Shown here in pieces: positions 6,512-60,893 of a DNA stretch of 64,000 bases. Position numbers and translations under genes: made by a program. Source of the stretch: Deroplatys truncata (taxonomy: Eukaryota > Arthropoda > Insecta > Mantodea > Mantidae); contig CM060978.1 of the NCBI GenBank assembly GCA_030765065.1, positions 224,087,498-224,151,497 of the forward strand, written 5' to 3'. The notes beneath the pieces were generated by a model that was not told the DNA's origin, did not search any database, and was given only the letters and a program-made list of their open reading frames with translations. Each line of letters opens with the position of its first letter. Position 1 is the first letter of the stretch.

Positions 6512-6620
6512 GCCATGGTAGCTCAGTGGTTAGAGCAACCGGACGGAGACCGGGAGATCCGTGGTTCAAATCCCGGCTATGGCATTGAATTTTTCAGTCA
6601 TCTGATTCTACCTTTCCATT
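6512..6620 (+). repeat. tRNA-derived SINE, family A, right arm
   Basis: Begins GCCATGGTAGCTCAGTGG (A box) and contains GGTTCAAATCCCGG (B box). The ends GCCATGG and CTATGGC pair as an acceptor stem, giving a cloverleaf-like 5-prime head. The anticodon arm pairs but its loop is not canonical, so it is a SINE head rather than a functional tRNA. The tail ends TCTACCTTTCC. Confidence 0.75.
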
Positions 6621-7448: not shown

Positions 7449-7793
7449 TCAGAATTTTTTTTTTTTTTTTTTTTCAACATAGTCTCCTTGTAACTCTGCA
7501 CACTTCTCCCAGCTATGCTCCCATCTCTGTAACCCGTCCAAATAGTACTCAGCATTTTTCTCTGCAAAATAATTGTTCACGAAGGTGTTTGTCTCTTCAT
7601 TTGACGAAAATCTCTGTCCTCCGAGCGCAATTTTCAGATGAGGGAACAAAAAGAAGTTGCTTGGTGCTAGATCTGGTGAGTAAGGCGGATGGTCAAGCAG
7701 TTCAAACCGTAGTTTGTGGATTTTCGCTATTGCAACCGCTGAGGTGTGAGACAGTGCGTTGTCTTGGTGAAACAGGATTTTCTTTTTCTGCAA
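7449..7793 (-). pseudogene. Mariner transposase C-terminal piece
   Basis: Encodes the second and third parts of the catalytic domain (FHQDNALSHTSAVA, HPPYSPDLAPSNFFLFP) and the usual tail with EKNAEYYLDGLQRWEH. Asn stands at the third catalytic position. A poly-Lys end comes from an expanded A-run. It is separated from the N-terminal piece by stops and a frameshift. Confidence 0.82.
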
Positions 7794-8259
7794 ATGTGGC
7801 CATTTTTCTGTAAGTTCTGCCTTCAGCTTGTCAAGTAATGATGCGCAGTATGCTCCTGTAATGGTTTTTCCTTTTTGAAGATAATCGATTAAAATAACTC
7901 CATGACTATCCCAAAAAAGTCACCATCACTTTCCCAGCCGAAAAAACAGTTTTTGCTTTTTATTGAGCCGGTTCCCCCTTTGCAATCCACTGTTTGGACT
8001 GTATTTTTGTTTCGGGCGTATAATGGTGTATCCAAGTTTCATCTACAGTAATTATTTGGCACCAAAACTCGGATTTATTGCGGCTAAACTACGCCAACAG
8101 AGCATTGGAAATGTTCATTCGAACACGTTTTTGGTCAAACGTGAGCAAACGCGGCACCCAACATGCGGACAGCTTTCTCATGTCTAAATGTTGATTTAAT
8201 ATGTGACAAACACATTCTTTTGACATGTTCATAGCCTCTGCTAACTCTCTCACTTTAAT

Positions 8260-16719: not shown

Positions 16720-18213
16720 TGGCTTGTTATTTGTATCGCATTGTTGTGCCAATAATTTTCATGCACAAATTTGAAAAACCAACTGTACTGGTACTTTTCA
16801 CCCACAATATAGTTGACTTAATATTCTATGGGAATATGAACCTATTTCAGGTAAATCTTTGCATTACTATGCAACATCAGTTACTGCAAGCAAAAAATGG
16901 AATGCTCAGTGGTGGAATTCCTTCCACATCCTTCTTCCCCAAGTTTATGTAGACTATATTGAGTTTTAAATTCATATTTCATTTAGATTGAACAGTTTGA
17001 ACCTTTATATAAAGCCACCAGCAGGTTAGCATGTTATGCTCATTGAAGACCATCAAGCCATAAAAAATTGTGCAGTGCAACCTAAACTTAGTCCTTCATA
17101 TTGAACAGCAGCCCAGAACAAGCTCTCAATATAAAAAATGCAACATTGACTCCACAGCAGAACATAATACAGTTTTTGCCAGAAAAAAGAAGAAGAAGAA
17201 GAAGAAACTGTATATCCCTGCTAATACAAATTCTTATGGACTAACAAATGCCAGTTCAGTTAACAAAGTTTGAATTGACAGATTAAACTGTACAACTGTG
17301 ATTGCACATTAAAATAAGTATGACTGGTCGATTGATTTCTTTCAGTTTGGACAAACAAGACTCCAAGGTAGCAATTATTCACAATGCATATAATTAAACC
17401 TTTCAAATAGTGAAGAAACTTTATTATCATGTTTGATTAACCTCATGCTACCTCTCCTCTCCCCTCCAAAAAACACAGATTTTTCTAATATTTTTAGAGT
17501 AACCAAACTACTAACTACAAAGCGGAAACAGCTCAACTGGGCCAGAGCCTACCCTCCTTAACGCCAACCCGAACCGAGGATTCACACTCCGCAGGATGTT
17601 TGAGACAATGTATAGAATTAAATGCAGTTATAATATGCAGTTTATCCAAGGAATAATTTAGAGAATATAAAACTATAGGATCAGTTTTAAGTATGATTTA
17701 CCCAAATTCAGCTAAGTATTTGAATTTCCATCTTTATTGGTTAAACTAACTTGATTAAAGCAAGTTGCATTTACCTGATTTCAGACAAACTATGACACAC
17801 TGTAGGTGCTTTTATTAGCTGTGAATAGGAAAGAAAATCCATCAATAAACTTAAATTTTTGTAATTATTGGTAAATTTGCTTTTCATAAAACATTATTCA
17901 ATTAATCAAATTGCTGATCAGTCATTTAATTTTTGCCATATCTACCTAACAGCAACAAAAACATATGGAAAAATGTATGCACTTGGTTTATTTCAAAGAC
18001 AACATCCATTCCAATTACATTAAATAGATTTCATAAGCAAAAGACAGAAGCAAACAAAAATGACACAGAAACAGTGACTTTGTTAGCTGCAACTAAAATG
18101 TTAGTTTATAGAAAAGGTGGAGTAAGGAACATCTCGCACTATCTTCAGGATGATGCACATGCATTCTGTGAGGGAAGCGAAGAAGTGGTGTGCAATGAAG
18201 CATCTTGACATAC
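16720..18213. other. Intron DNA with a GC-rich patch
   Basis: Mostly AT-rich, with a GAA microsatellite near 17188-17206. At about 17518-17600 a GC-rich patch (GGGCCAGAGCCTACCCTCC, CCCGAACCGAGGATTC) interrupts the intron. It may be a short retroposed fragment, not identified. Confidence 0.4.
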
Positions 18214-19668
18214 CTTTTCCAGGACAGGAGGTGGCAGCTCATGAGATGCAGAGTCCCTGTTCTTGAGCAGGGGTGGTCGACCCACTCTAGGTTTGGAATT
18301 ACTGGGAGAATTTGGTGGTAAATCCAGACAGAGTCTATTGCACCTCTTCCTTGGTCGACCTGGTCCTCTCTTCACAGGACTCACAACTGCTGATACCTCC
18401 CCTAATTCTGGAGAGCCTTCTATTGAATTAGTTGACAGTGCAGATGAAGATGATTTCTTGGGTGTCAACTTTGAAAGCTCCCGTTGCTTCTCCCGGTATT
18501 TACGCTGTAGTTCAGCCAACCTCATACGCATTTCCATTTCGGAAGTGTCCATAAGTTCAGAGGATGCTGTGGACGGACTGGCACACAAGGACGAGCCTGG
18601 CAGCAGATGCTGCTGGGAGCTGCTGGCACAATGCTGGGGACTGCTGGAACCACTGCGCCCTCCATTGCCATTACAAGCCACACTAGTACTGCTGCTACCA
18701 TGCAGATGATAGTGGTGCATTCCTTTGCTTGCAATGAACTTTCTACACTCCCGCTCGGACTCCCGTGTCTTATAATTACGATTAACATCCACACTTCCAG
18801 ACTTTTGGCTGCCCAGGTGATCTGTTCTACAGCTTGAAGCAGCCTGCTTTTCTTCTGCCTCCCCTTCAGCTTGGGATGTGCTCCCTAATGGGCTTGGAGG
18901 GCTAGACTGTGGCCACGACCCTGATTGTGTAGATTTAGATGTTGCAACTTCTTCCATAAATCTCTGTTCCGCTAACGCACACAACAGAGTGAGGCCTCCA
19001 AGCATACTGCCATTTCCTAATCCATTGCTCACACCTTCCCCAAACTTTTGTCCTTCACCCTGATTCACAATGAAACACTTATTTTCACTACTGCCACTGT
19101 CACAAGCTGGAATGTCACTTCCACAATTCACATTTCTGTCCACATTGCTTTTTGTATTGTTTGTGCAAATCTGGCCGGAAACTACGTTTGAAATTTTGTT
19201 ATCACAGTTTTTACTGATGGACATATTTCCATCACTGGCACTAAAAGTGTTAACGTCCTCCCTGTCAGAGAGCCTGTCTTCTGAAGACTTTGTAGGTGTT
19301 GATGCAGACTGATGACAAAGCATTTGCAGTGTTTCGGCGGCTTTCTCGTCAGCTGGCCTGATTTCTGACATATCAGGCTTTTCCAAGGATGTCACAGTTG
19401 CCTTTGAGATTGCAGCTTTACTGCTCATGCTGGAGGAATCTGCCATGACATTAACAGCCAGAGCACTATTGGGCCGCTGATCTGTTTTGTCATGACGTTG
19501 AACAAGATGGCTCTCAAACTGCTCAATACTATTGGATAACAGTTCTAAACCACTCAAGTCTACTGCAGGCTGCTCCTCCACTTTTGTCTTTGTTTCAGAC
19601 ACAGATGATACCTCCATGCATGACAGTTTCATGTTGGATGCTGAGCACTCAGGAACAGTCTGCCTCAT
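18214..19668 (-). CDS. wge: wge-like main exon with helical motif and AT hooks
   Basis: The largest exon is 1455 nt and 485 codons, phase 0 at both ends. The acceptor TATCTCCAG lies directly before an ATG at 19668, so this Met is internal, not necessarily a start. The donor GTATGTCAAG starts at 18213. Within the exon, residues about 1-210 are Ser/Asn-rich and acidic. Around 223 is GLTLLCALAEQRFMEE. About 300-370 is Ser-rich. Around 379 comes the basic helix MRLAELQRKYREKQREL, the signature shared with BAHCC1/TNRC18. AT hooks sit near 434 (KRGPGRPRKR) and 466 (PRVGRPPLLK). AT hooks bind the minor groove of AT-rich DNA, so the protein is probably nuclear and chromatin-bound. Plus-strand frames here are shadows. 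Confidence 0.85.
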
Positions 19669-22210
19669 CTGGAGATATAAATTATCCTTTTATCCCACAT
19701 AATTAATAAGTTATACAAAGCTTGTCTTCTAGTTATAGTGAAAGACCAAAACAATTTAGCAAAGAGGATCAATTATTTAAATAAACTTATTTGTTTTATA
19801 TAGCGATTGATATTTACATTAGCAAAGAGTTGAAACTTCCAAAGATACTACATAAGATTGTGCATATTTACCTATATAAGTCTACCTCAGTCAAGAACCA
19901 TTTTGATGTAAACAATGGGAAGGAGTTGATTACCTTTTCGCATGTTTCATGTGTATATATAAGTTTTGTGGCATTTAGAGTCTAAGCTTCTTTACATGCC
20001 CAAGGATACAGAGGTGTTGGGAAATAAGGTCATTATCCAGAACTGAAGCCCTAATAGGGGCTGATAGTTTGCAGTGCTATTACCAGTAAGGAAATAGCTA
20101 AGAGTATGTATCTCTTGATGTGGTTACCTGCATCATAACAAAGAAATACTCATGACCTTGATTCTTCCAACTACAACATAACGATGTTATGTCTCCCTTG
20201 CCTCTTTTCTTTCGCATGTTTGTTCCAGAATCACACTTGTCTGAGCAAGATTATAACTAAACATTACTAGCAAAGAGTGCTCTAAAACAACTATTGTCCA
20301 GTTTTCGTAAAACGAAGGTAATTTGCATTTCTTTTAGTGTGAAAAAATAGCTTTGTATCATATTTAATCACTTCAAATAGATGCACCATTTTGTTAATGG
20401 TTACTTAATCTCCATAGATGACATAGGCATCACTACATTCCATGATCTGTCTCTGCTTGTTTGAACATGCACATTTAAGAACTCTGACCACATTTGTGTT
20501 ATGGATCCAGGCATTTTAACAAACTTCTGATCCAGTCAGTATAGGAAATGGCAGTAACGTACAAATGGACACTTAACGTAGACTTGGCTGGACTACGTGA
20601 TTGACTGGCAAGTTTACGTCACAGTCTCTAACTATGGACACTAAATGCATGTAGAATTAAATGCTCTTCTGGATTTTAATAGTCTAAAATGCATTTTGCC
20701 AAGATAGCTCTTAAAAACATAAAAAGTGAATATAGTAGGAATGAAATACCTTACAAGAGGTACAAGCACCATTGGGGGGGGGGGGCTAATTTACAGTTCC
20801 CATTAGTTAGTGGCTGTCGTGTTAGCCAATTACGCTACCCAACCAAATCTAATAAAATGCTTGTATGCTGACAGCATCAAAATTCATGTTAGAACAAACC
20901 TAGGTGCATTCCAACACAACAGTCTCTGATAGCATGTGATTATAGTTCACTTAAAAGTCTGTGATTGCCTAATGTGCATGCATTGGTTTAGCATCTAGCA
21001 CCAATCAGAATTGGTACATGCTATTTGCTATGTACTGATCCTCTACTCTGATGGGATCAGAAGTTTTCTGGATTCAACCTTATGCATGTGAGTTATTAAT
21101 GTATGGTTTACAACACATATGCGTTACATCTAAATGCTTATAATTACTGCTGACTTAATTCACTTAACCACATACATGCCTTTTATGTTCCACAGCGGTA
21201 TCTGTTTGCAGTACAAAATATAACAAATATGGGAGTTTTTACAGTGGTATTAAATTCTACACAAAATGACTATGGACTTTAATATTCCATTTCCAAGTCT
21301 ATTTATTGCAGAAGTATCTTCAAGCTTATTATATACACGAAGTTCTAGTGAGTGACTTTGCAGCTCCTTTTAATAAGTAAAATAAATTACATCATATAAT
21401 TTAGCCACAATGGCAATTTAATTTTAAAACTTTAGTAGGTTTCAGTTTGATATAACCTATACATTATAAATCAGTACAATGATGCATCTTCAAAGTAATT
21501 GTTCCAATTGTATCTATTTCAGTTCCATCCCATCCCCTTATTTCTCTTAATATATTGTTGACTAGGAATATAATTTATGTGTTTACTACATTATTTTCAA
21601 GCTTCAGGGATTTGTTGACTTTCTGAAAATGCAGATTTAATACGTCATATTCTGATAATATGAAAAACAACACTGCTTTTGGAAAATATAGCACCAACTT
21701 TTATAGGTGCAATATAAAAATTTATATTGCCTAACAAAATTTTTAAGCCAGGTTTCCTTCTGTAGTGTCAAGATATTAAAAACTACAACAGGTCTCCATG
21801 TGACTTCTTTCTCTTCCCCAAGAACATATTGAAAGTAAAAGGGCAAGTAATCAAAACCATTAGAAAGATAAAATCAAAACCACAGATGCCAAAATGAGAG
21901 TATTCCATTTGTAACATAAGTGCTTGAGGTCAATGTGTGCACAGCAAATGAGGGTGACAGTGGTGTTTAACTTTCCAGATATGGTTTACTTTCATTTGTG
22001 GGTGTGAACTGGAAAATTTTGGATCACCCCTCACATATGGCACATACAGTAGAATAAGAAATGTGAAGAGAAAGTAAACAAGGCAATGCAACTGGTAGAA
22101 GAAAAATTTACAAGCTCACTGAGATCTTCATGATTACACATACATTTGAATTCACTAATGAGACATTTTCCTCCTAACATGGTACACTATAAATGAATAC
22201 TTAAACATAC
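19669..22210. other. Intron DNA, nothing recognised
   Basis: AT-rich intron with a short poly-G run near 20774. No gene or repeat could be delimited. Confidence 0.45.
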
Positions 22211-26154: not shown

Positions 26155-26770
26155 ATACCGAGTGGTCGTTATATGGCCCAGCCACGACTTCATGTATGAT
26201 TCACTTGCACTGCAGTAACCTTGATATCATTCCACTAGATCACTAGCGGTGAATGACCTCTTCAAATCTATGCTTATTGGCTGTGAATGTCAGCTGTCAG
26301 TTACTGCCTTCTGTTCGGCTGCAAAGACTAGAGTTTGTTCATTGTCGTCTCAAAAGTGGAAGCTTATTCAAACATCTGTGTTGTGTGTGAATTACTTTAA
26401 AGTATTCTTATTATTGCTGCTGTTCTTGTCTTGTTATTAGTCCACTGAAATGCCTACCAAAAATTCACATTTGTACAAAGAATTTTTATGTACAATACAT
26501 ACATTAACACCGAATCATGTAGACAAGCGTGTAGGCAATTTCAGGAGACATTTCCTGATATTTCAGCTCCAAATAGAAATACTGTCACATATCTGGTTAA
26601 TAAGTTTAGGGCAATGGGACTGCTAAATGCTAAACCTAAGAAGCGAAAAAGTCAAGTTGTAATGGAGGGAAAAATTGTCAAAATTAGTACTGCCGAGGGT
26701 ATGCGAACCCCCTTGAGGGGCATTGGACCCCTCTGTGCGGTGTGGGGTCTCCGGTCTGCCGGAGGACACC
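26155..26770 (+). pseudogene. DUF4817 transposon head remnant
   Basis: The frame at 26488-26680 reads ESCRQACRQFQETFPD, then PNRNTVTYLVNKFRAMG and a basic tail KPKKRKSQ. This is the N-terminal helix-turn-helix (DUF4817) of insect mariner relatives. An upstream ATG in another frame (26450, MPTKNSHLYKEF) suggests a frameshift near 26485. The likely 5-prime end is near 26155 (GAGTGGTCGTTATATGGCCC). The GC-rich end at 26690-26770 (CCCTTGAGGGGCATTGG) is not explained. No right-hand TIR was found. Confidence 0.55.
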
Positions 26771-26779
26771 CACTTTCAA

Positions 26780-29285
26780 AACCACTTAAAAGGTTACTAT
26801 TACTATGTTACATTTTGTTACTATTACTCTTGAGTATGCAACACAAGATTTTTAAAATGGACGGTGTAGTAGATAGCATGCTGCACACACATGATCTGGG
26901 CCGGCTCATAAAAAGACCACTCTATATTTCTGGTTTGACAAGTACTATATTTGGTTGAAACAAGATACGACTTGTAACAGTTAATGCAAGAGAGTGAGCT
27001 GGAGGGCTGCATAACCACATAAACAACAATCACTAGCTGTTCAGCTGTGCACTAATTTAAGTTAATTTTATAATATCCGTATATTATAGACAAGCTATTA
27101 TGTTCTCCCTATAAAATTACATAAAGGCTGCACTGTGATAACAAAGCCAAATAATTCAGAAAAAATTATAATAATGAGAGCACCAGAAACTGTGTACTAC
27201 AATGTGCATACTTGGTATCAAATTCATACTGCCCCTGCAGTTCAGCTTTTAGATGAAAGAAAAAGAGCAACATACTGGCAAGAGCAGTGGTAAAGAGGAT
27301 GTTGCCATGAAAATGTTTCCTTTAGCAATTATGTCACAAGTTACTTACTGGGTTTATATCTTCTGCTGTAGTCATCTACATAAATTGTTCCAAATCCAGA
27401 TACTTGTTGACTATAAACTGGCTTTTTATAACTAAGCCATTCAAATGATGGCAAGCAACATTGGCAGATTCTTTGAATATGCTAATTTTTCTTTTCTTTT
27501 CCCCCATGAGGGGCCGAGGGACATGTAAAAATATGTAAATATTCAGAGAGGAAAAGGAAAATTGTTCAGTTCAAAATTTGACAACACACAAAAAGCAAAA
27601 ACTAAAATAGTTGCATTAATTGGATAAAAAAGGAGCTGAAAGCACAAAAGATGGTAATGCAAGAATTAGTTGTAAGCAATTAAAAAGAACTGTAGTAAAA
27701 GCTGTGATTTAAGAAAACAAAAACAAATAAACAAAAAAACTACGGGTTTGTTTTAAAAAAAATGGTAATGAAATTGTATGGATTCTACATACCTTAAATT
27801 TTCAACCATTATTAAGGAACTTATTATAACTGAGTACTACTTTTTCCAGCCTTTCATCACAGTAACATGTACTCTGTGATAAAAGCCATTACTGTTACTA
27901 TGAGATGCTCTCTTTCATCAATGCCTGACACCTAGGGTCTTCTTCAAAAGAAGAAACAGACAAAAATCACTTGGTGCAGAATGAGAACTGTAGGGTGAAT
28001 ACTCATGAATCACTAGGTCATTTGAATAAGAACAATTCCTAACTTGGCACCAAATAATTCTCATTTACTTTCTCATCTGAAGAACTTCCTTGGTGGCATG
28101 CATTTTAATCATGATTTCAAAGAAGCACTTCATTACAGGTATGTAAACCAGTGTCTCAACATGAAGAAAATGAAGTTTAAGGTAAGCAGAAGCTAATACA
28201 ATTAATATTTTGAAAATAATGAGGGTTAAAACAAAGAGGTTGAGGGAGAAACCTTACTATTCACTTTAAAAAGATATGCAGCGTAGCAACAATCATTAAT
28301 TAAGAGTTTCAGCACATGCTGTTGTTAAAATCACAAACACAGGGCTCTTAAATGCAATATAATGTAAGTTCTCAGAGCGCATACATACATGCATGCATAC
28401 CTTAACCTGTACTCAAATAAAACTAAATAAGTTTATAACGAGAGAAAGTATGCAGATGAAGAATAGCATTAATGCTATTTTCTATGAGAAACAAAAAACA
28501 AACCAGTATGGAATAAATGCATTCCTCTTCATTCCAAAAAAAAAAGTACAGATTACTTTAAATTCCATGCAAGTAAACAATGTACATACCAAAATAAATA
28601 TAAAGAGCATTCTCAGATAATTTTGCCTATTGCAAATGAAAACAATTTTGTGATAATAATCTTTGGTGCAACCTTAGCTGGTAATTGGCATTTGCCAGTA
28701 CATGGTAACGAGCTCTAGAAGTCAAGGAAAGATGTAATTACATCATTGAGGTCTCCTAGCAACCACCAAAAGCATCAATAGCAGGCAAGATGTCCTTGGC
28801 AAGAAGCATTATTCTATTGCAGTAATATTTTTCCTACTGCTGAATGACATAATGTTTACAAATGAGATAACCCATTGCATTAATTACTTCCAACTTGAAT
28901 AGCCCAAGAATAAAGTTGTTCCATATGCATTGTTCAATGGTATTGCTTAATTGCTTTGTCATAATTTTAGAATTGGTTAACTCAAAATGTACACATGTTG
29001 GTAGATGGTGGATACATATTTTACAAGGCAAAAAGTAGCTAAAAAATGAATACAGGCATTTTTAGCAGATGCACCCTGATAAAATAAGGGCACAATATTA
29101 TACTCTGTGTAAGCATACTTTATCACAAACAGCATTTGCTCATTAGAGCAAAGTATCTGTCATTCATATATTTTATTTAAGTAACTTTGTGTTCACTTCA
29201 GCACAACCCTAGACTTAACTTTTGTCAAGTAAATGAGCAATCAAGTAGGAAGTTCTTTTAGTACTTTTACAGTACTCATTACATT
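26780..29285. other. Intron DNA, nothing recognised
   Basis: AT-rich intron. Short frames on both strands have no recognisable content. Confidence 0.4.
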
Positions 29286-29290
29286 GATTT

Positions 29291-30150
29291 TTACTTTCTC
29301 TACTACGTGTAGGGGAAGTATTGTATTCCACCCAAAAACTCGATACCGAGATTTCACCTCAAATATGCGTTTTTAGGGCCCCTCAATCCAAAAAAAAACA
29401 TTTTTGGAAACATGTCCGTGTGTGTCTGTGTGTCTGTCAGTGTCTCTGTGAACAGCATAACTCAGAAATGAACAGTCGGATAAACACCAAACTTGGTATT
29501 TACGTTCAGTATCTTCCAGAGATGCGACACGAAGGTTTTCAAGAAAATCCCCCACCCCAGATTACCCTTCACATGGAACATTTTTCGAAAATTTTAATTT
29601 TCTCTACAATGGCTCTGATGATTTTGATTAAAATATCATATGTTTAAGATATTTTCATGACAAATGAAATGTATATCTCAAATTTTCTGGGAATGTCTCC
29701 AAAAGTATTCTTCATTGTGAACGACTTTTGCATAGCTGGTAAACCATAAGAGATAGACAAATTTTTACTACACAAAAAATGTAGATCGCATTAAAATACA
29801 CAATTTATGTCATACTTTTTTTTTTGTTTAGTGAACCATTTTCGAGATATTGCTTGTTTCCCCTTAAATTTTCCAATACTTTTGCCTTTTCTCAAATGGA
29901 AATTCATTATTTTTTTTTGGGGGGGGGGGGAGTCCTGGTAATGCAAAGAGAAAGGAATACTCCACATTGCAACCAGCTCTTAAAATATTTGACTATTGCT
30001 TAAAGCCTACCAATTCCCCTTGCATCTACAAGAAAATTAGCAATAAGATTAACATCTCAATCTCTCGATTAACATGAAGCTTATGGAGAATAAGTGTTTG
30101 TAAAAATAGTTTGTACAAGAGTAGAGAAAGTCATGTGAATGTAACGCATC
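29291..30150 (+). repeat. 0.86-kb TG-bearing repeat, family R, copy 1
   Basis: Begins TTACTTTCTCTACTACG and ends near GAGTAGAGAAAGTCATGTGA, so the 12-bp word ACTTTCTCTACT is inverted at the two ends. In order it contains CCACCCAAAAA-TCGATACCGAG, a TGTG/TCTG microsatellite, GAACAGCATAACTCA, ACCAAACTTGGTATT, GATGCGACACGAAGG, AATTTTCTGGGAATGTC, AACTGGTAAACC-type sequence and GATTAACATGAAGC. Frames inside are repeat-borne and not conserved as protein. Confidence 0.75.
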
Positions 30151-30570
30151 AAATTTTTTTTTCTAAATAACTGCATACATGTTTGCTACCTACACTATGT
30201 ATTCTTGAACATCTATGCCAAAAACAGTAGCACTGCTGTCCTTAAACAATTATTACCAACTAAGAGGGTACAAATAAGGAAGCTGTTCAACTATAAACTT
30301 TACATATATAGCCTTGGTTAGAAAATATTTTATATGTTTGTAGTTAGTAAAATTGAAACTAAGATGAAAGATGTGGTTGTGATATTTCGAGCCTTCTCTG
30401 CAAAAATTTTGAAAATATTAATACATATTTTAATAACCTTGAAAATGTTCAATCCAATTACGTTTATTTTGATACTGGTGTCTTTGATAGTCTTCGCTTC
30501 AGCGTACTACAAATAAAATATCTGGTTTGTTTTCATTTTCTCTATAGAGCTGACAGCTTACAATACTTAC

Positions 30571-30708: not shown

Positions 30709-31502
30709 CTGGAAAACAAGCATAAAGGCAAGTTGACAGAAGGTAGGTGTACCTAACCATGACCTAAAAGTTTTGTTGTAAAGGTAACACTATCATAAAG
30801 CAACAAAAAAGCCTATGGCATATAGTATTTGTCATTCCTCTTTTATTTAAAAAAATAAGGTTAAAGAAATGAACATAAAAAAATGTAATTGTCTCGTTAC
30901 TAAGAAGAAAATAAACTGTTGCAGTGAGAGAACCTGATGTTTCAGTTTTAATTGTCTAAATGAACATCTATGAGGCTAAGAATAATAAGCGCAAATGCTA
31001 GAATAACAGATTATGGGCCCAGGCACATGAATTACCATGAAATGCAGATTTAATAAATATTCACAGGAAGTGATTTTAATAACTGGTCATTCAGAATCAG
31101 GCTTGATGGAAGAACACTCCTTCCTTTGGAGACACTAGATGAATAATTTACTACAGTAAAACCAGAAGAGCAAGCTAAAAACATAAAACCCAAGAACATA
31201 ACTGTGCAATGCATAAATGACTTGCACTTAAAAATAATCAAGGATTGTGGCACAGCATATGAGATTATTCAAAGCTTACAGCTGTATTTCACTGTGCAGG
31301 TAATGCATCACAGCTTCTATAGAGAGATTGCTAACACAACGAAAATAACAGACTTGAATTCTTTTTTAACATTTGACAAGCTGATCAGAGACATGGAATC
31401 ATCAGAAGCAAAACCGAATGTCAGTGAGACCATCTGTTACTTATTACTTGCTAATTAATTTTGAAAATTTAGAAGCTAGTAACAGTGATGTGTCATAGTT
31501 TA

Positions 31503-31557
31503 AAATAAAGAGAGTTGAAGGTTGTTACACTACATCACTAAAATGTTCTTACTTGAA
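31503..31557. repeat. Direct repeat beside Penelope-like fragment, copy 1
   Basis: About 55 bp, from AAATAAAGAGAGTTGAAGG to AAATGTTCTTACTTGAA, repeated almost exactly at 33829-33884 in the same orientation. In the second copy the sequence goes on into a hammerhead-like core, which is absent here. Confidence 0.65.
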
Positions 31558-31603
31558 TTATTGAATTTACAAAAAACGATCTATTAAATTCACAATAGAA
31601 AAA

Positions 31604-31877
31604 GAAGAACATGGCCATTTTACCTTACCTAGACATCAAGATCATCAGAAATAATGCACACAACGAACTAACGTTCGGCATTTACAGAAAACCAACTCAC
31701 ATAGAAAATTATATTAAAAGCAATAGCTACAATCCTACAAGTCACAAACATGCAATTTTAAATAGTATTACAAACAGGTTAGTACATATACCATTGGAGA
31801 AAGAGGAATACCAGAAAGAATACCAACACATTATTCACATAGCCAGACTTCCAAAAATCCTGCAGATGAGACTTTGA
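31604..31877 (+). pseudogene. Penelope-like reverse transcriptase C-terminal fragment
   Basis: The frame runs ILPYLDIKIIRNNAHNELTF, GIYRKPTHIENYI, NPTSHKHAILNSITNRL and ends HIARLP. The LPFLD...IYRKPT...H..HK..........R pattern is the thumb region of Penelope-type reverse transcriptases. The N-terminal catalytic motifs and any GIY-YIG endonuclease are missing. A diverged non-LTR relative is the alternative. Confidence 0.6.
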
Positions 31878-33237: not shown

Positions 33238-33800
33238 TCAGTGTGTGATGATTACTTTATTCTTTTCGAACTTAACCCCAAGTCCCAATTCTTCTATTCT
33301 TCTTACAGAAGGCAAATTATCTGCCAAATGAGGAATGTAAAGCACATTTTTTATAGTAGCCATTTCAGCACTAACAACAGCTATTTTTGTTGCCATTAAC
33401 CACTCATTTTTCTTGGCAATATCCTTTAGAAAGTACTTTTCTGAGATCACAGATGATCCAATGCTCTGGAATCAACATAAAACTGTACACTGTACCTGTC
33501 TTATCTCCTAACCTATAATTTGCTAGGAAACATATTTCATCCTCATCTAGATCTTTCTCTGGCTCTTTCTTCTTCACCTGGTTCACTTCCTTTTTCCTTG
33601 GAGATCTGAATTTACATTCAGACTTCTTAGCTCTTTTCTTTCACAGTGGTAGCAGTCATACATAAATTTTCTTTCCTGAAGCTTGTTCTGTTTGGTAACA
33701 AATGACTTTAAGCATTCTTAAAACGTTTAAATTTCTTCGTCGAGAAGTCGATTATTGACAAATTCTAATGTCAATTCTGAGCCCATTGTCTCGATTGCTG
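33238..33800 (-). pseudogene. Copia-type gag/protease-region remnant
   Basis: Read on the minus strand the pieces come in gag-pol order. GSELTLEFVNNRLLDEE near 33780 is the typical end of the copia gag domain. A zinc-knuckle start, CYHCER, lies near 33645. A Lys/Glu-rich linker leads to a piece near 33500-33460 resembling the region before integrase. VLYIPHLADNLPSVRRIEE near 33290 is the copia pre-integrase signature. Frameshifts and stops separate the pieces. No LTRs were found. Confidence 0.6.
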
Positions 33801-33828
33801 TGACTACAATGACATAGTAAGTAATATA

Positions 33829-33884
33829 AAATAAAGAGAGTTGAAGGTTGTTACACAACAACACTAAAATGTTCTTACTTGAAC
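33829..33884. repeat. Direct repeat, copy 2
   Basis: Near-identical to 31503-31557 over AATAAAGAGAGTTGAAGG, GTTGTTACAC and AAATGTTCTTACTTGAA, with a few changes in the middle (ACAACAAC versus TACATCAC). It forms the 3-prime side of the hammerhead-like fold on the minus strand. Confidence 0.65.
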
Positions 33885-33930
33885 GTGTTTCGGGAGATGG
33901 TTTGCTCCCATCGTCAGCATGTTTTCAACT
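33839..33930 (-). ncRNA. Hammerhead-ribozyme-like fold
   Basis: On the minus strand CTGACGA (33917-33911) is followed by GGGAG / CTCCC stem II with an 8-nt loop, then GAAA (33891-33888). ACAC then pairs with GTGT 20 nt later as stem III, leaving a U before the predicted cleavage point. AGTTGAA and TTCAACT close the outer stem I. This is the order of a type I hammerhead: CUGANGA, stem II, GAAA, stem III, UH. Oddities are an unpaired U between CTGACGA and stem II and a weak inner stem I. Penelope-like elements are known to carry such motifs, and a Penelope-like fragment lies 2 kb away. Confidence 0.6.
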
Positions 33931-34099
33931 GATTTTGCTGGTTATTATCTGGGGAATGTTCTGTGCTGGGCTGATGAATCTCCAAAGGCTGCTGGGTGGC
34001 GGCAGTTCGAAATTCATTAGGTGATTCCTGTGTTTGATATGTATTTTTCGGTAAATTGTCATACTTTTGCCCCCATTTGTGTCACTTTTGCCCGCATTA

Positions 34100-34330
34100 G
34101 GTCTTACGCTTGCTCTAACGTAATGCTGCCAACATATGAATAATGCCACCGAAGCCGGTAAGATACTCAGCCTCAAAGCGTAGCTGAGAGATTGAGGGCC
34201 CTCAGCCTCAAAGCGTAGCTGAGGGATGTTTTTTATAAGGTGATGAGTGTAGCAAGTTGCGGCCAAGAGGCCGCAACTGCGAAGCGCCGACAGAGCGTAG
34301 CCCAGGGATCTGCGCTTCTAAAACTCAAAT
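34100..34330. repeat. Hairpin-rich repeat with AGCGTAGC units
   Basis: Two near-identical 25-bp units (CTCAGCCTCAAAGCGTAGCT, then GAG) begin near 34167 and 34201, and a third related unit (CAGAGCGTAGCCCAGGGATC) lies near 34290. A perfect hairpin GTTGCGGCC-AAGA-GGCCGCAAC is at 34256-34277, and GAAGCGC/GCGCTTC pair around the third unit. The same family appears inverted at 60893-60995. Not identified. Confidence 0.55.
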
Positions 34331-34339
34331 GATTCACGT

Positions 34340-36690
34340 TTGCAGAAACAACAGCACATCGCATATTCAGTACATTTCACTTCTTATTTAGGTTGGCAGT
34401 ACCCACTTTGCATGGATAAATGGCTACATTTGTTGTTTTCCTCACGCTATTTGCCTATATAAGTGAAACACCTAAAACGGGTGGGTAGCTGGGAACCAGA
34501 TATTGGAGAGACCACATCATGTTCTAAACTCACTCCTAAGGTAATTTATTTAATTATTTTTCACTTCCTTATTCCTAATTTAGGTGGGCAAAAGTATGAC
34601 AATTTAGCCGTATTTTTTTCCAGATGTCCAATTCATTGCTGCTGTTGATTGGTTTTAGGAGTTTTATGTTCGGAGTGATATCATGGTTTGAAGACCAGAA
34701 ATGATGTGCTACTGCTGATTTATCTGGCTGTTCATCTCATATGCTCTTTAAGTCTTATTTCAAGATTTCTTTTGCATTATTGTGGGAATATGTTAATACA
34801 GTTTTGTTGCATTTGCATGAGGTTATTCTCTCAGAAACATTGCACACCAAAAGACAAAATACCAAATAACCCATGCTGTGCCAAGAATAGAAACCTTGGG
34901 GGAAGCTAGAAGCATTGCTTCAATGTAAAACCAAGCTTTTCATTTGTGATCTAAAACAGGGACATCTCCAAAACAATACATTTTTATGATGTTAAAAATC
35001 ACATAATTTTTATCTTTTGTGAGGTCATGCTTAAACACATAGCCTTTGTCAACTTGCCCTTTGTAAACTAAATAAGTGATAGCTCAGCCAAAAGCATAAT
35101 GCCCAAACAAAAATCATAACACAAAACTGAAATAAATGGTAGCAAATCATTCCACATAGTTCATAGCTTTATAAAGAAAAACAAACAAACAAAAGAGCCA
35201 TTGGGATATGCAAGACAAATTGCCTGAATACTCACTTCATGCATTGTGTGTGCCATAAAGGGATGAAAAATTAAGGTACTGAAGCAACATTATGAACTGT
35301 GGGGAGGGGGGGACTAATGTAGAATGAAAAAATTGGATAGAAAAATGTCCTTGTTAATAACCATGTTTCAACTGGTTTTATGCAAAACTTAACCATAAAC
35401 TGTTTAATTTTAATATTCTCCTGTATAATAAATATAGTTTTAAACATTTTTTTCAATAAAATAATATTTGAAAGAATGTAAATACAAATCAGTAAAGCTT
35501 GTTATTTAATTTTAATGGTTATAATAAAATATTCATTATCGTGAAAATGTATAAGAAAAAATGTTGCACTTTATAAAATAGCTATTCTATAGCTAGAAGC
35601 CAAAAGCTGGTATATATTTTGGTAATACAATTTATTTTTGCAATAAATATTCTCATGGTCCAATAAATGTTAAGAAACATTGTTATGAACAATTTATTCT
35701 ATTGTGATCACAGGTTTCTTAAAGAGATATCACTTAGTGCTTCCTCATAACTATTATCGAGACTTTGTTTCAGAGAACTTGATAATGTGCATGATGGGAA
35801 ATTTTTTTCATACTTGAACTGCAATTATCTTCATTTTATACTTTTATATGATACTATCACTAATATAGATATAGATAAACATAAATAATAATCAAGTGCC
35901 AGGATGTTTACTCTGTTAATTGCATTATTTGGTGAACATCTTTATTGTGAATAAAAATAAATTTCTTCTATAGAATTATAATTCCAGGATATATTCTTAT
36001 TGATCATTTCTCATATAATTAATGTTACAATTAATGCACAATGTAAAATTCATCATGGAGAATCACTGTATGCCATTGATTTTCTTCCTTGCAGATTTAC
36101 ACTCTTCACTTTTTGCAATACTTTGCATATTAGTTATCATTATTTACTACCAAGCCTTTCAGATTTAGGATCACCTTAACTTACACTATTTTAATCATTA
36201 CTGATATATTCATGGAAAGACTATTTCAGTTTACTAGTATTAAAATCTGCAATATTATGATGTTCTGATTTTTAATATATTTTTTATTGTTTTATTTCTT
36301 TAGCCATTTTAAACTACATTCATCCTATATATGACTTTATCTTTTAAACAGTTGTTTGGTATTGCTTATTTGCTTATTGTTGACTTTAACATTAGGTTTA
36401 CAACTTGCAGAGGTAGTGATGATTCTAATCAAAGAAAAAAAAATCTGTCACTCCAGTTGATAATCTAAACCACCATACTAACCATTAGGCAGCAAAGGTA
36501 GTCTTTAAAAAATAATCCCTGAAAAGCTGTAAAAATGTAAATCAATTAAGACTTCACACCAGAAAAATAATATACCAGATGAATGAACCCACAGCTTACA
36601 GTTTGATGTGAACATTGGCTGTTTGACCACGCATTGTTCTGCAGCTATAATTCCTATTTGTTCAAGTGCCCAACCAACAATAATTACTGT
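34340..36690. other. Intron DNA, nothing recognised
   Basis: AT-rich intron sequence with only chance frames. No repeat edges seen. Confidence 0.4.
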
Positions 36691-36985: not shown

Positions 36986-38019
36986 TTAACAATAATGACT
37001 AATCATTGCACAAATACTAACAAACTACAGAAGCTTAAAATGCAACAGTATGGCACTGATCCAAAAGTAGGATGATTTACAAATGTCTCTTAAAACAAAG
37101 CCAAAGAAGCCTTTGGATAAGAGAATCACTGCTCCAAAACTGCTGTGGACTCAAAAAAGTGTAATTATTTAATGTTAATGTTTTCATATCTGCATGCTGG
37201 AGACCACCACAAATATTTGCTTTAATTCTTATTACCTAACTTACAAATCTTAACCATATTTACAACTTCCATGCAATATTTTATGCCAAAATATCCAATC
37301 TCAAGTCCAAAGCAGTAAACAAAGAGTGAAAAAATTAATTTAAGCTCCTTATTGTGTAAGAATTGAGCACGCTGATGTTCATTATACCACTTAGCTATTT
37401 GGTACATGGAATATCATTCCCTCTTAAATAATTGCAGTCTAGCTTTATACTAGACAAAACTCTGATTTCAAAACTTTGTATGCTCTTCCTTTTTAAGATG
37501 ACTTTGAGCCTGCATAACTTTTTAAACAAATGGTGCAATCTATTATTTAGATATATCAAATGAACGACGTTTAATTCATACCAGAATTTATATATTAATT
37601 TCATTTCTTGACCGTACAGCACCCATTTTGGATATACACATACCTCTTAATTGGTTATAGCCTATTGTTTCTCTAGTTCTTTAAATCTGCCAGTTTATTC
37701 TTTGCTGATTTTGACAATGAATCCAATAACATGTATTTCGCTTATTTGGTGATTTCAGAGGTGGGTAGCAAGGTACATCGAATAGTAAAAGTTTATAAAA
37801 TTGCTAAAAAAAACCAGTGTAGTTTGTCTAACTACACTACACATATGAACTGTGAAGCAAATGACAGACAGATCCAAGGTATATCTATTGTACCTAATAG
37901 GTTGCATAAATTTCAAAACCCTATAGTCAGGTGATTCATCTGGTATATAACCAAATACTCTGCTTAATATATTTTCCATAATCTTAACTTCACATGATTC
38001 TTTAGACTATTTTGCTTAC
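36986..38019. other. Intron DNA, nothing recognised
   Basis: AT-rich. No supported feature. Confidence 0.4.
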
Positions 38020-38498
38020 CTGTGTTGCTGGCTCTATTTTGATGAGAGTGGTAGCAGGACTGGCTGGTGGTGCAGTAGACACAGCAATAGCAGTTTGATG
38101 GTGATGATGCTGCTGTTTGGTGGATGTAACACGTTTTTGATGAGACTCTGGCTGTGGTGGTTGAGACTGCTGGGGTGGTGGTGGCGGTGGTAGTTGTACA
38201 GGGGCAGCTGGAGGAGCAGGAGCAGCTACTGTTACTGCTGTTCCTGCAGCCGTAGCAGCAAGCGTCAATTGTTGTGCAGGTTGCACAAGGATGCGCGCTG
38301 CTGTTGGAAGGAATTCATGTGCCTCTGAGCCTGGCGCAGGTGATGGCTCAAACAGCTGAATATGCTGGGTTGTACCAGTACCTGCACCTGCACCAGCTCC
38401 GCCAGTGGGAGGTTGTGTTGTCACCTGAAGCGTGGCTGTAGAGGGCTGTGCTGCTGTAGTGCTGTAGCTCGGCCATAACACAGCACGTTGCACATGTT
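38020..38498 (-). CDS. wge: wge-like exon, Pro/Ala/Gln/His-rich
   Basis: The exon runs from an acceptor ending TTGGACAG above 38498 to a donor GTAAGCAAA starting at 38019. Two leading bases complete the Glu codon from the 40850 exon, and 159 codons follow, ending in phase 0 at EPATQ. It opens with EHVQRAVLWPSYS. Low-complexity sequence follows: an Ala/Gly/Thr stretch, a run of seven prolines, polyglutamine/histidine (KQQHHHHQ), and LIKIEPAT near the end. The IKIE tetrapeptide fits the psi-K-x-E SUMO consensus, an inference only. GC-rich codon usage stands out sharply from the AT-rich introns. The opposite strand carries no convincing frame. Confidence 0.8.
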
Positions 38499-39547
38499 CT
38501 GTCCAACACAATGACAATGCTGGCTATAGAGCTAGGAACACGTCACATACATAACAAAACTCTGCATTTGTCCTTAGTTTTTTCTTCTCACCTGACAATC
38601 AAAGTCTTTGAAAAATTCCAGTAAGTTACCAAGCTCCAAATACTAAAATGCATAACAAAAATCTTTGTTGTGCTTTATGCTAAATAATGCAAGCTCAAAT
38701 TGAGAAACCCGTGTTAAAGATGTTTATTTATAAGTCCCATGAGTGAAGTTCATTCAACCAGATTACTTTGATTTTCAAAGTTGCTTCTTATACAGATATA
38801 ATGCTGAGTAGAAGGGAAGGAGATGTACTCATTTAAACCCGAGTGAGATCTTGTTGGGTACAGTGAGTAAGTTTATAAGTAATTTTCTACTAACTTTCTA
38901 CTATGCTTGAAAAAGAGATCGCATGCTTTTCTTTACATGCAGGGGAGACAATTCATGCCTGTGAAGCAAAATGGTGGCTTCCTTGTAGTAAAACATGTGC
39001 TGAGTTGTTTCTGTAACAGCTCCAGGTATGCTACTGCATTACAGGGCTGATGTTTTAATTGTATCACACAAAAATGTAATATTTATGGTCACAATAAGAC
39101 CCAGTACCCAAAGCAACTATAAATAATGTATTAATAAAAATAGAAAATATGAGAAAAATCGACATTTTTATTTAACAATTTAAGCAAATGCAATAAAGCA
39201 AAACAAATAATGTTATTAAACAAATATATAACCAATGAGACTATTATTATCATAGCACATCATATCACAACCCTCAGAAGCATATGCAGGGTCAGACATT
39301 AGGCCACTGTTGCAATATCTTAACTTCTTCAATCATCTGTTGTTCTATCATACACTTGAATAAGATCTTCCATACGTCAATTATAACACCAAAAGTGTAC
39401 AAAACAGTATTTTTTTTGCTTAAGTTTTTAATTGCATACAATCTTGCATGCCAGAACAGTGGAAGAAAATATTTTGTGCCAGATAGTTTAGTCAAATTTG
39501 TAGGTGTTTACCACATTTAATATTCTGTTGTTTACTGATGGAAATTA
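38499..39547. other. Intron DNA, nothing recognised
   Basis: AT-rich intron between the 38 kb and 40.9 kb exons. No feature before the mariner copy begins. Confidence 0.4.
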
Positions 39548-40425
39548 CAAGGGCTGATCAACAAAGACTGAGACTGATTTTTTTTTCACATGTTTATTAC
39601 TCCAATTCAATGTTTACATGATTTTTTTCAAAGTAGTCCCCTCCTACTTCAATGCACTTTTTATAGCGTCTCTGCCAGTCCTTGAACACGTGCTGCAGAC
39701 CATTCTTTGTCAGGTCCTTGAGAATCGTCTCATTTTTCTTGAGCACTGCTTCAGAGTTCTCAAATCGAATACCCCTAAGCTTTGCCTTTACTGATGGGAA
39801 TAAAAAGAAGTCACAGGGTGCAAGATCGGGGCTATAAGGTGGATGTGGTACACAGGTAATGTTGAATCGAGCCAGAAACTGCATGACTTGATTTGCGACG
39901 TGAAGCCGTGCATTGTCATGATGAAGTCGCCACCCAGTCCGAGAAAGCTCTGGTCATTTCTTTGCAATGTGCTTCCTCAGTGTAGCCAATACTAACGTGT
40001 AGTATGCTGCTGTAACAGTAGTGTGAGGGGGAACTGCATGCTGGTAAATCATTCCATTACAGTCAAAAAATGTGATCACCATCACTTTCCCTGCAGATGG
40101 AACAACTTTTGCCTTTTTTGGTGTTGGAGAACCTGGTGATTTCCACACTGTGCTAGCTTGTTTTCCTTCAGGATCATAATGATGCAGCCATGACTCATCA
40201 CCGGTGATAATTGGTTTAAAAAATGCATCACCTCCATTGTCTGGTATGCGAAATGCAGGGTCTACAAAATAGAGCATTACTACCAACCTACCAATACGAG
40301 AGTGCTGCCGCCTACCAACATTATACATAAAAACCCACTCTTTTCAAATATTTATGTTACAGATATAAAACTATCACGGAAGCTACAGGAAAAAATCAGT
40401 CTCAGTCTTTGTTGATCAGTCCTCG
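39548..40425 (-). mobile_element. Mariner element, 878 bp, internally deleted
   Basis: Ends CAAGGGCTGATCAACAAAGA and its inverted partner (CGAGGACTGATCAACAAAGA read from the right) extend into GACTGAGACTGATTTTTT with two mismatches. TA flanks both sides (39546-39547, 40426-40427). The minus-strand transposase lacks its N-terminal DNA-binding half but keeps all three catalytic Asp regions (TGDESW, HHDNAR, SPDLAPCD). A single in-frame TGA at 39954-39956 interrupts it where an Arg codon is expected. The near-identical TIRs suggest a younger insertion than the 7.4 kb copy. Confidence 0.85.
39597..40328 (-). pseudogene. Truncated mariner transposase
   Basis: Two collinear same-frame pieces: 40328-39957 with ITGDESWLHHYDPEGKQAST and GKVMVITFFDCNG, and 39953-39597 with HHDNARLHVANQVMQFL and PHPPYSPDLAPCDFFLFP. 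Only one stop codon separates them. The N-terminal HTH domain is lost to the internal deletion, so the protein could not bind its ends even if read through. Confidence 0.8.
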
Positions 40426-60640: not shown

Positions 60641-60655
60641 TAAAAGAAGTATCAT

Positions 60656-60893
60656 AACCTTTCGTGAATTCAGAAACGTAAGCTTATATAAAAAAACTAA
60701 CCTAAACCTAACCTTTCGTGAATTCAGAAACGTAAGCTTATATAAAAAAAACTAACCTAATCCTAACCTTTCGTGAATTCAGAAACGTAAGCTTATATAA
60801 AAAAACTAACCTAAACCTAACCTTTCGAAAGCTTACATAAACAAAAAAATCTAACGTAAGCGTAACCTTCCGTTAATTCATAAAGCAGAGGTT
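60656..60893. repeat. Tandem repeat, period 54-55 bp
   Basis: Units start at 60656, 60710, 60765 and 60819 with AACCTTTCGTGAATTCAGAA, then CGTAAGCTTATAT, an A-run and CTAACCTAAACCTAACC. Three units are nearly identical; the fourth decays. The linker resembles the insect telomere repeat strand (CCTAA). Confidence 0.8.

Follow-up and report, generated by a model that had tools for sequence, protein, structure and literature searches.

Penelope-like coding pieces and their surroundings

The window, which is the whole 64-kb stretch of DNA that was analysed, contains coding pieces of a Penelope-like element (PLE) and a hammerhead motif. The end of the GIY-YIG endonuclease ORF of the element, with its stop codon (33927-33925), was assigned to 33925-34048 on the minus strand from frame continuity and DNA identity. 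An upstream part of the same endonuclease region lies at 34611-34774 on the same strand, with 86–90% DNA identity to 4 family copies. The two parts are separated by a 562-bp insert (34049-34610), which has short inverted ends of about 20 bp and a 7-bp target duplication (AAAAATA), and is probably a small DNA transposon. Homology to the family copies breaks off and returns at the edges of the insert, and its flanks, when joined, keep one frame through the stop codon. The region from about 33820 to 34048 is 87–91% identical in DNA to the 4 family copies compared, and the upstream endonuclease piece shares 81–83% amino acid identity with the 5 listed family ORFs. The stop codon lies 7 nt before the core of the hammerhead motif (33877-33922, minus strand). 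Past the predicted cut, the 3'-terminal segment of the element (33827-33881, minus strand) forms a direct end without tail, ending at 33827. A reverse-transcriptase (RT) fragment, which looks PLE-like by its motif, lies at 31556-31845 on the plus strand (90–94% DNA identity to 4 family copies, 74–82% amino acid identity to family ORFs).

The family ORF L188:3639-4349 matched the Pfam GIY-YIG model with E 3.3e-5 (24.5 bits, cut-off 22.6), and L204:130-870 fell just under the cut-off (E 1.9e-4, 22.1 bits). The endonuclease piece of the window alone gave no match in Pfam, and no Pfam RT match was found for the window or the family ORFs. Searches of Pfam, PDB and viral contigs with the window pieces alone returned nothing for RT or endonuclease, and an exact search of viral contigs with a 21-base piece of the repeat found none.

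The insertion has an inverted partner end, located at 31454-31557 on the minus strand by a 57-bp repeat comparison. The stretch 33827-33883 is repeated at 31501-31557 without the ribozyme core, and this 57-bp copy of the 3' segment is joined to a tail (31454-31500) that is also found in family copies. Both ends of the element are bordered by TATTACTTRCTA, 11/12 identical with one mismatch. The left copy of this 12-bp target-site duplication is TATTACTTGCTA (31442-31453, plus strand) and the right copy is TATTACTTACTA (33815-33826, minus strand, 11/12 identical); the null for the duplication gave 29 and 64 of 20000. The insertion site is the 5' part of a gag remnant at 31147-31441 on the plus strand (Retrotran_gag_2 E 0.094, a weak match below the Pfam cut-off), which looks copia-like, partly by its motifs. 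The 3' part, a copia-like gag/pol remnant that would have been inverted together with the PLE end, occupies 33238-33814 on the minus strand, and its matches are also weak (Pol_BBD E 1.6e-4, below the Pfam cut-off; Retrotran_gag_2 E 0.089).

Several other features were observed in the window. Transposase pieces, presumably mariner-like, lie on the minus strand at 7452-7919 and 39600-39953 (Transposase_1 E 1.1e-10; DDE_3 E 2e-4), and a DUF4817 helix-turn-helix match (E 4.7e-12) at 26449-26955 on the plus strand. A repeat of about 160 bp at 30000-30161 has four more copies in the window with 88–94% identity; the query started at 30000, and the repeat may be longer. A tRNA gene is present at 6512-6584 on the plus strand (Rfam 53.5 bits), and a tandem repeat with 3.2 copies of a 54-bp unit at 60655-60827. 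The long minus-strand open frames at 18148-19689 and 38005-38523 may be host exons, and gave no Pfam match at E≤0.1.

The element belongs to a dispersed repeat family. Scoring 40 of the 3,164 first-look candidates for a 201-base query (33800-34000) gave at least 41 matching places in the 4.29-Gb host genome, the window included. A core pattern of 31 bases, two of them free, matched the genome 739 times, and a 36-base tail pattern had 1,710 exact copies; the reversed controls gave 0 in both cases. Two samples were compared. The first is an alignment of 43 rows, made of the window and 42 copies from 39 loci, from which 5 partial hits of 47 were excluded. The second is the first 100 listed of the 1,710 tail copies, all on contig C1 and ordered by position, among which 65 ends retain the core and stem I.

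The 39 loci were extended to about 4.7 kb, and 30 of them had an inverted partner, 8 had none and 1 was unresolved. The tail (about 46 bp) stood at exactly one end in 29 of the 30 insertions with a partner. At least 8 bp were common to both flanks in 26 of the 30, of which at least 3 are doubtful (AT-rich strings touching the element end). In the window, likewise, the tail is at the left end (31454-31557) only and the right end (33827) is tail-free. This anatomy matches that of PLEs in the available excerpts of PMC3846280 and also in PMC11167929.

The hammerhead motif and its pairing across genomic copies

The minus strand from 33922 to 33877 reads ACATG-CTGACGA-T-GGGAG-CAAACCAT-CTCCC-GAAA-CACG-TT-CAAGT. 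Read as a minimal type I hammerhead of the PLE kind, it consists of the stem I 5' strand (33922-33918), the core CTGACGA (33917-33911), an extra U between A9 and stem II (33910), stem II (33909-33905/33896-33892), GAAA (33891-33888), loop III CACG (33887-33884), U16.1 (33883), U17 (33882) and the stem I 3' strand (33881-33877), with the predicted cut at 33882^33881. In this fold, stem I (ACAUG/CAAGU) has two pairs on either side of an A·A mismatch, stem II is GGGAG/CUCCC and helix III has one pair. The core is intact in the window copy: CUGANGA and GAAA are present, A15.1 pairs with U16.1 and H17 is not G. Its helix III hexamer, ACACGU, is not self-complementary.

Where stem II starts there is an ATG, whose frame has only 15 codons and whose first base lies 30 nt from the predicted cut. 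Most aligned copies keep the minus-strand sequence CAA|GTAAGA (33881-33873), which resembles a 5' splice site and shares bases with the 3' strand of stem I. Some PLEs are known to contain introns.

The minimal fold was compared across the two samples. A15.1-U16.1 is paired in all 43 aligned sequences, and N1.1-N2.1 is Watson-Crick in 41 and G-U in 1. The stem II pairs are Watson-Crick in 37–42 of the 43, and stem I pairs 1, 2, 4 and 5 are kept in 38–42. Stem I pair 3 is A·A in 43/43 and 64/65 sequences. The extra U before stem II has the same counts (43/43 and 64/65), so it is a feature of the family and not a mark of decay, one of the two options that the initial annotation had raised. No compensatory double change was seen in stem I or stem II among the 43 + 65 sequences, which are close relatives and give low power. 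The commonest helix III hexamer in the family is ACGCGU, whose self-complementarity matches the expectation for dimer cutting; the hexamer is self-complementary in 21/43 and 29/65 sequences.

CUGANGA and GAAA are retained in most copies, as expected of a ribozyme by the initial annotation. The core is intact in 27/43 aligned sequences, the window among them, and in 39/65 of the position-ordered sample. The losses are mostly at G8 and G12, both in CpGs (9/43 and 9/43, one G12 case being a gap), and in L129-L307 the changes at G8, G12 and loop III are likewise mostly at CpGs. These CpG-centred changes suggest methylation-driven decay of the copies. At positions that are not CpG-like in the core, GAAA and loop III/U16/U17, changes were found in 2 of 344 cells, compared with 81 of 1988 upstream. 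Low change was also found in loop II (2/172) and the 3' tail (32/1631), and the stem I 5' side was high (26/258). With these other rates, and with copies that are related and chosen by similarity, the low rate at the core is weak evidence.

The same letters had been given another fold in the initial annotation, with a 4-bp stem III (ACAC/GTGT) and an outer stem I (AGTTGAA/TTCAACT). All strands of this canonical type I fold exist on the minus strand as described: CTGACGA, GGGAG/CTCCC, GAAA followed by CACGTT, GTGT (twice downstream), AGTTGAA (33930-33924) and TTCAACT. Every outer-stem pair is standard in 41–43 of the 43 sequences, the MFE structure includes the outer stem and stem II, and the canonical fold completes less often in random contexts (53/5000) than the minimal stem I/III does with the core given (616/20000). 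However, this pairing does not hold up across copies. In GTGT register 1, all four pairs of stem III form in the window copy only, and the core-adjacent pair N1.1-N2.1 is unpaired in 41/43 sequences, with one G-U and one gap among the rest; in register 2, this pair is unpaired in 43/43. The two strands of the outer stem are conserved but show no compensatory change, and this stem I is not supported. We consider the canonical fold very improbable, and prefer the minimal fold. Because minimal stems complete by chance at this rate, the assignment of stem I in the minimal fold leans mainly on the precedent of other PLEs.

Chance resemblance, Rfam models and insertion ends

A chance resemblance without ribozyme ancestry would agree with several results. 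The stretch folds with an unremarkable energy (z -1.19; 28/200 shuffles equally good), and for the bare 50 nt the hammerhead fold (-5.4 kcal/mol) is less stable than the MFE structure (-10.4 kcal/mol). The Rfam hammerhead models had no match in the window at E≤10, nor in 20 of the first 39 family loci at E≤1; as a positive control, Hammerhead_1 was found in 1 of 16 loci picked as short among 80 listed. The lack of a covariance-model match and of compensatory changes among genomic copies, both proposed as checks by the initial annotation, counts against its reading. An Rfam match is a usual but not a defining sign of a hammerhead, and the minimal PLE forms may fall outside the models. The mismatch within stem I and the extra U between A9 and stem II also weigh against the hammerhead reading; a published screen rejected candidates with mispairs beside the core, according to the available part of PMC3088659.

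In contrast, the core with the 5-bp stem II and GAAA occurs once in the window, with no second instance elsewhere in the 64 kb, and in just 1 of 300 dinucleotide shuffles; with the two further stems of the canonical fold added it occurred in 0 of 300, both patterns being picked post hoc. The motif also follows the stop codon of a PLE endonuclease, in sense with it and near the described sites of PLE hammerheads, and the few changes at its core, GAAA and loop III positions argue weakly in the same direction. A composite assembled by chance, as the 57-bp repeat without core might imply, was dropped, since in genome copies the shorter repeat is a truncated inverted partner. As judged from sequence comparison, it is family membership, not folding or Rfam, that lifts the motif above chance, and we hold chance resemblance to be hardly probable.

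The positions of insertion ends were analysed for signs of cleavage in vivo. In the window, 2 nt separate the inverted partner end from the predicted cut, and in the family one partner end (L182) starts exactly at the cut. The first set comprised 18 truncated ends, namely 17 of the 30 family partner ends and that of the window; it leaves out 13 ends that run up to the limit of the query, and L170, which stayed unresolved. Within this set, 5/18 ends were at most 8 nt from the cut, a post hoc count with P of roughly 0.01; one of the 18 ends, at +72, falls beyond the range that the null assumed. In the 100-end sample, 70 ends were truncated between -150 and +10. This sample mixes direct and inverted ends, covers positions up to +10 and has end pairs from one insert, which are non-independent (L214 and L215 are probably one duplication). 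Of these 70, 11 fell in -3..+3, 11 in +4..+10 and 2 in -10..-4. None of the 70 was exactly at the predicted cut, and -3..+3 had no excess over +4..+10. The strongest cluster was at -52..-47 (18/70, L208-L307), around the endonuclease stop codon. The 100 sampled ends thus show a step around the cut and no spike, and the end positions do not support cutting in vivo. It seems unlikely from these ends that ribozyme cleavage occurs in vivo and shapes new insertions.

Origin of the site and relation to known hammerheads

The comparison of copies shows the family, the position of the motif, the pairs kept across copies and the insertion anatomy. We are confident, from these sequence data, that the site is a minimal type I hammerhead at the 3' end of one decayed and rearranged Penelope-like insertion. 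The suggestion of a PLE type I hammerhead in the initial annotation was right in this respect, the motif being in sense with the endonuclease ORF of that element. The PLE inserted into the putative copia-like gag remnant and made the 12-bp target duplication. Like other PLEs, the insertion has an inverted partial terminal copy (31454-31557) at one end, and at the other a direct end with ORF stop, hammerhead and 3' segment. Since RT and endonuclease are on opposite strands, we infer that a segment with breakpoints near 31845 and 34774 was later inverted, which would have flipped the endonuclease and the direct end; about 0.3 kb of the element would be missing at these breakpoints. The 562-bp insert, probably a small transposon, also entered the endonuclease later.

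RNA of intact family members would be expected to cleave between UU and CAAG. Cleavage would be easiest in a dimer held by pairing between the self-complementary ACGCGU of two copies, which would extend helix III to six pairs. By analogy, the intact members would share the same class of activity as published PLE hammerheads. The window copy probably has weak or no cleavage activity, because its ACACGU is not self-complementary and the partner end is without core.

Two further readings are barely credible. An active intronic ribozyme serving a host gene would fit the intact core letters and the view of the initial annotation that the motif lies within a host intron, on the strand that is transcribed, but the window is one of many genomic copies of the family, its helix III loop is not self-complementary, and no second core with stem II and GAAA is found in the window. 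A non-autonomous animal retrozyme would also bring a type I hammerhead, some with weak helix III (PMC7229834, in the portion available), but the motif is linked to coding sequence for RT and GIY-YIG from its own family and no tandem array spans it.

The preferred reading, a PLE hammerhead, corrects the fold given to the motif. It also adds a locally new family of hammerheads, with core copies in the hundreds, which the Rfam models left unflagged in the loci tested, and the ends of inverted partner copies offer a countable test of PLE hammerhead action in vivo.

According to the available sections of PMC6155905 and PMC7761336, PLE hammerheads are minimal type I forms, usually without helix III, and may cleave as dimers. 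Their place is the terminal repeats, or the start of the ORF in one PLE (PMC11167929; PMC6155905 and PMC7761336 in the same sections). A 2020 review calls their in vivo role a mystery (PMC7761336, available part). The family resembles them, as far as the text at hand of PMC6155905, PMC7229834 and PMC7761336 goes, in the type I order, a helix III of about one pair, the position at a PLE terminus, a loop whose self-complementarity suits dimer cleavage, and many dispersed copies. Against these published forms, compared by description from partial texts, the family has the extra U and the A·A mismatch, both nearly fixed; they may be locally new, and may or may not be known.

Parallels were found with PAc, a Poseidon PLE of Anolis, whose in vitro cleavage needed the PLE protein and whose cleavage was dispensable for insertion (PMC11167929). 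In both, the hammerhead is at the junction of terminal repeat and ORF, insertion ends occur with and without tail, and stem II starts at an ATG that is preceded by C3 and G8. The distance between the predicted cut and the first base of that ATG differs, being 30 nt here and 26 bp in PAc (PMC11167929). The type I hammerheads of newt and axolotl, in the excerpts of PMC7229834 and PMC6155905, share the single-pair helix III and the palindromic tetraloop, and give a precedent for a mismatch at the base of helix II; they are found in short tandem repeats, whereas that of the window adjoins PLE coding sequence. The combination of a hammerhead with a Penelope-like element is already known, and the site is real but ordinary.
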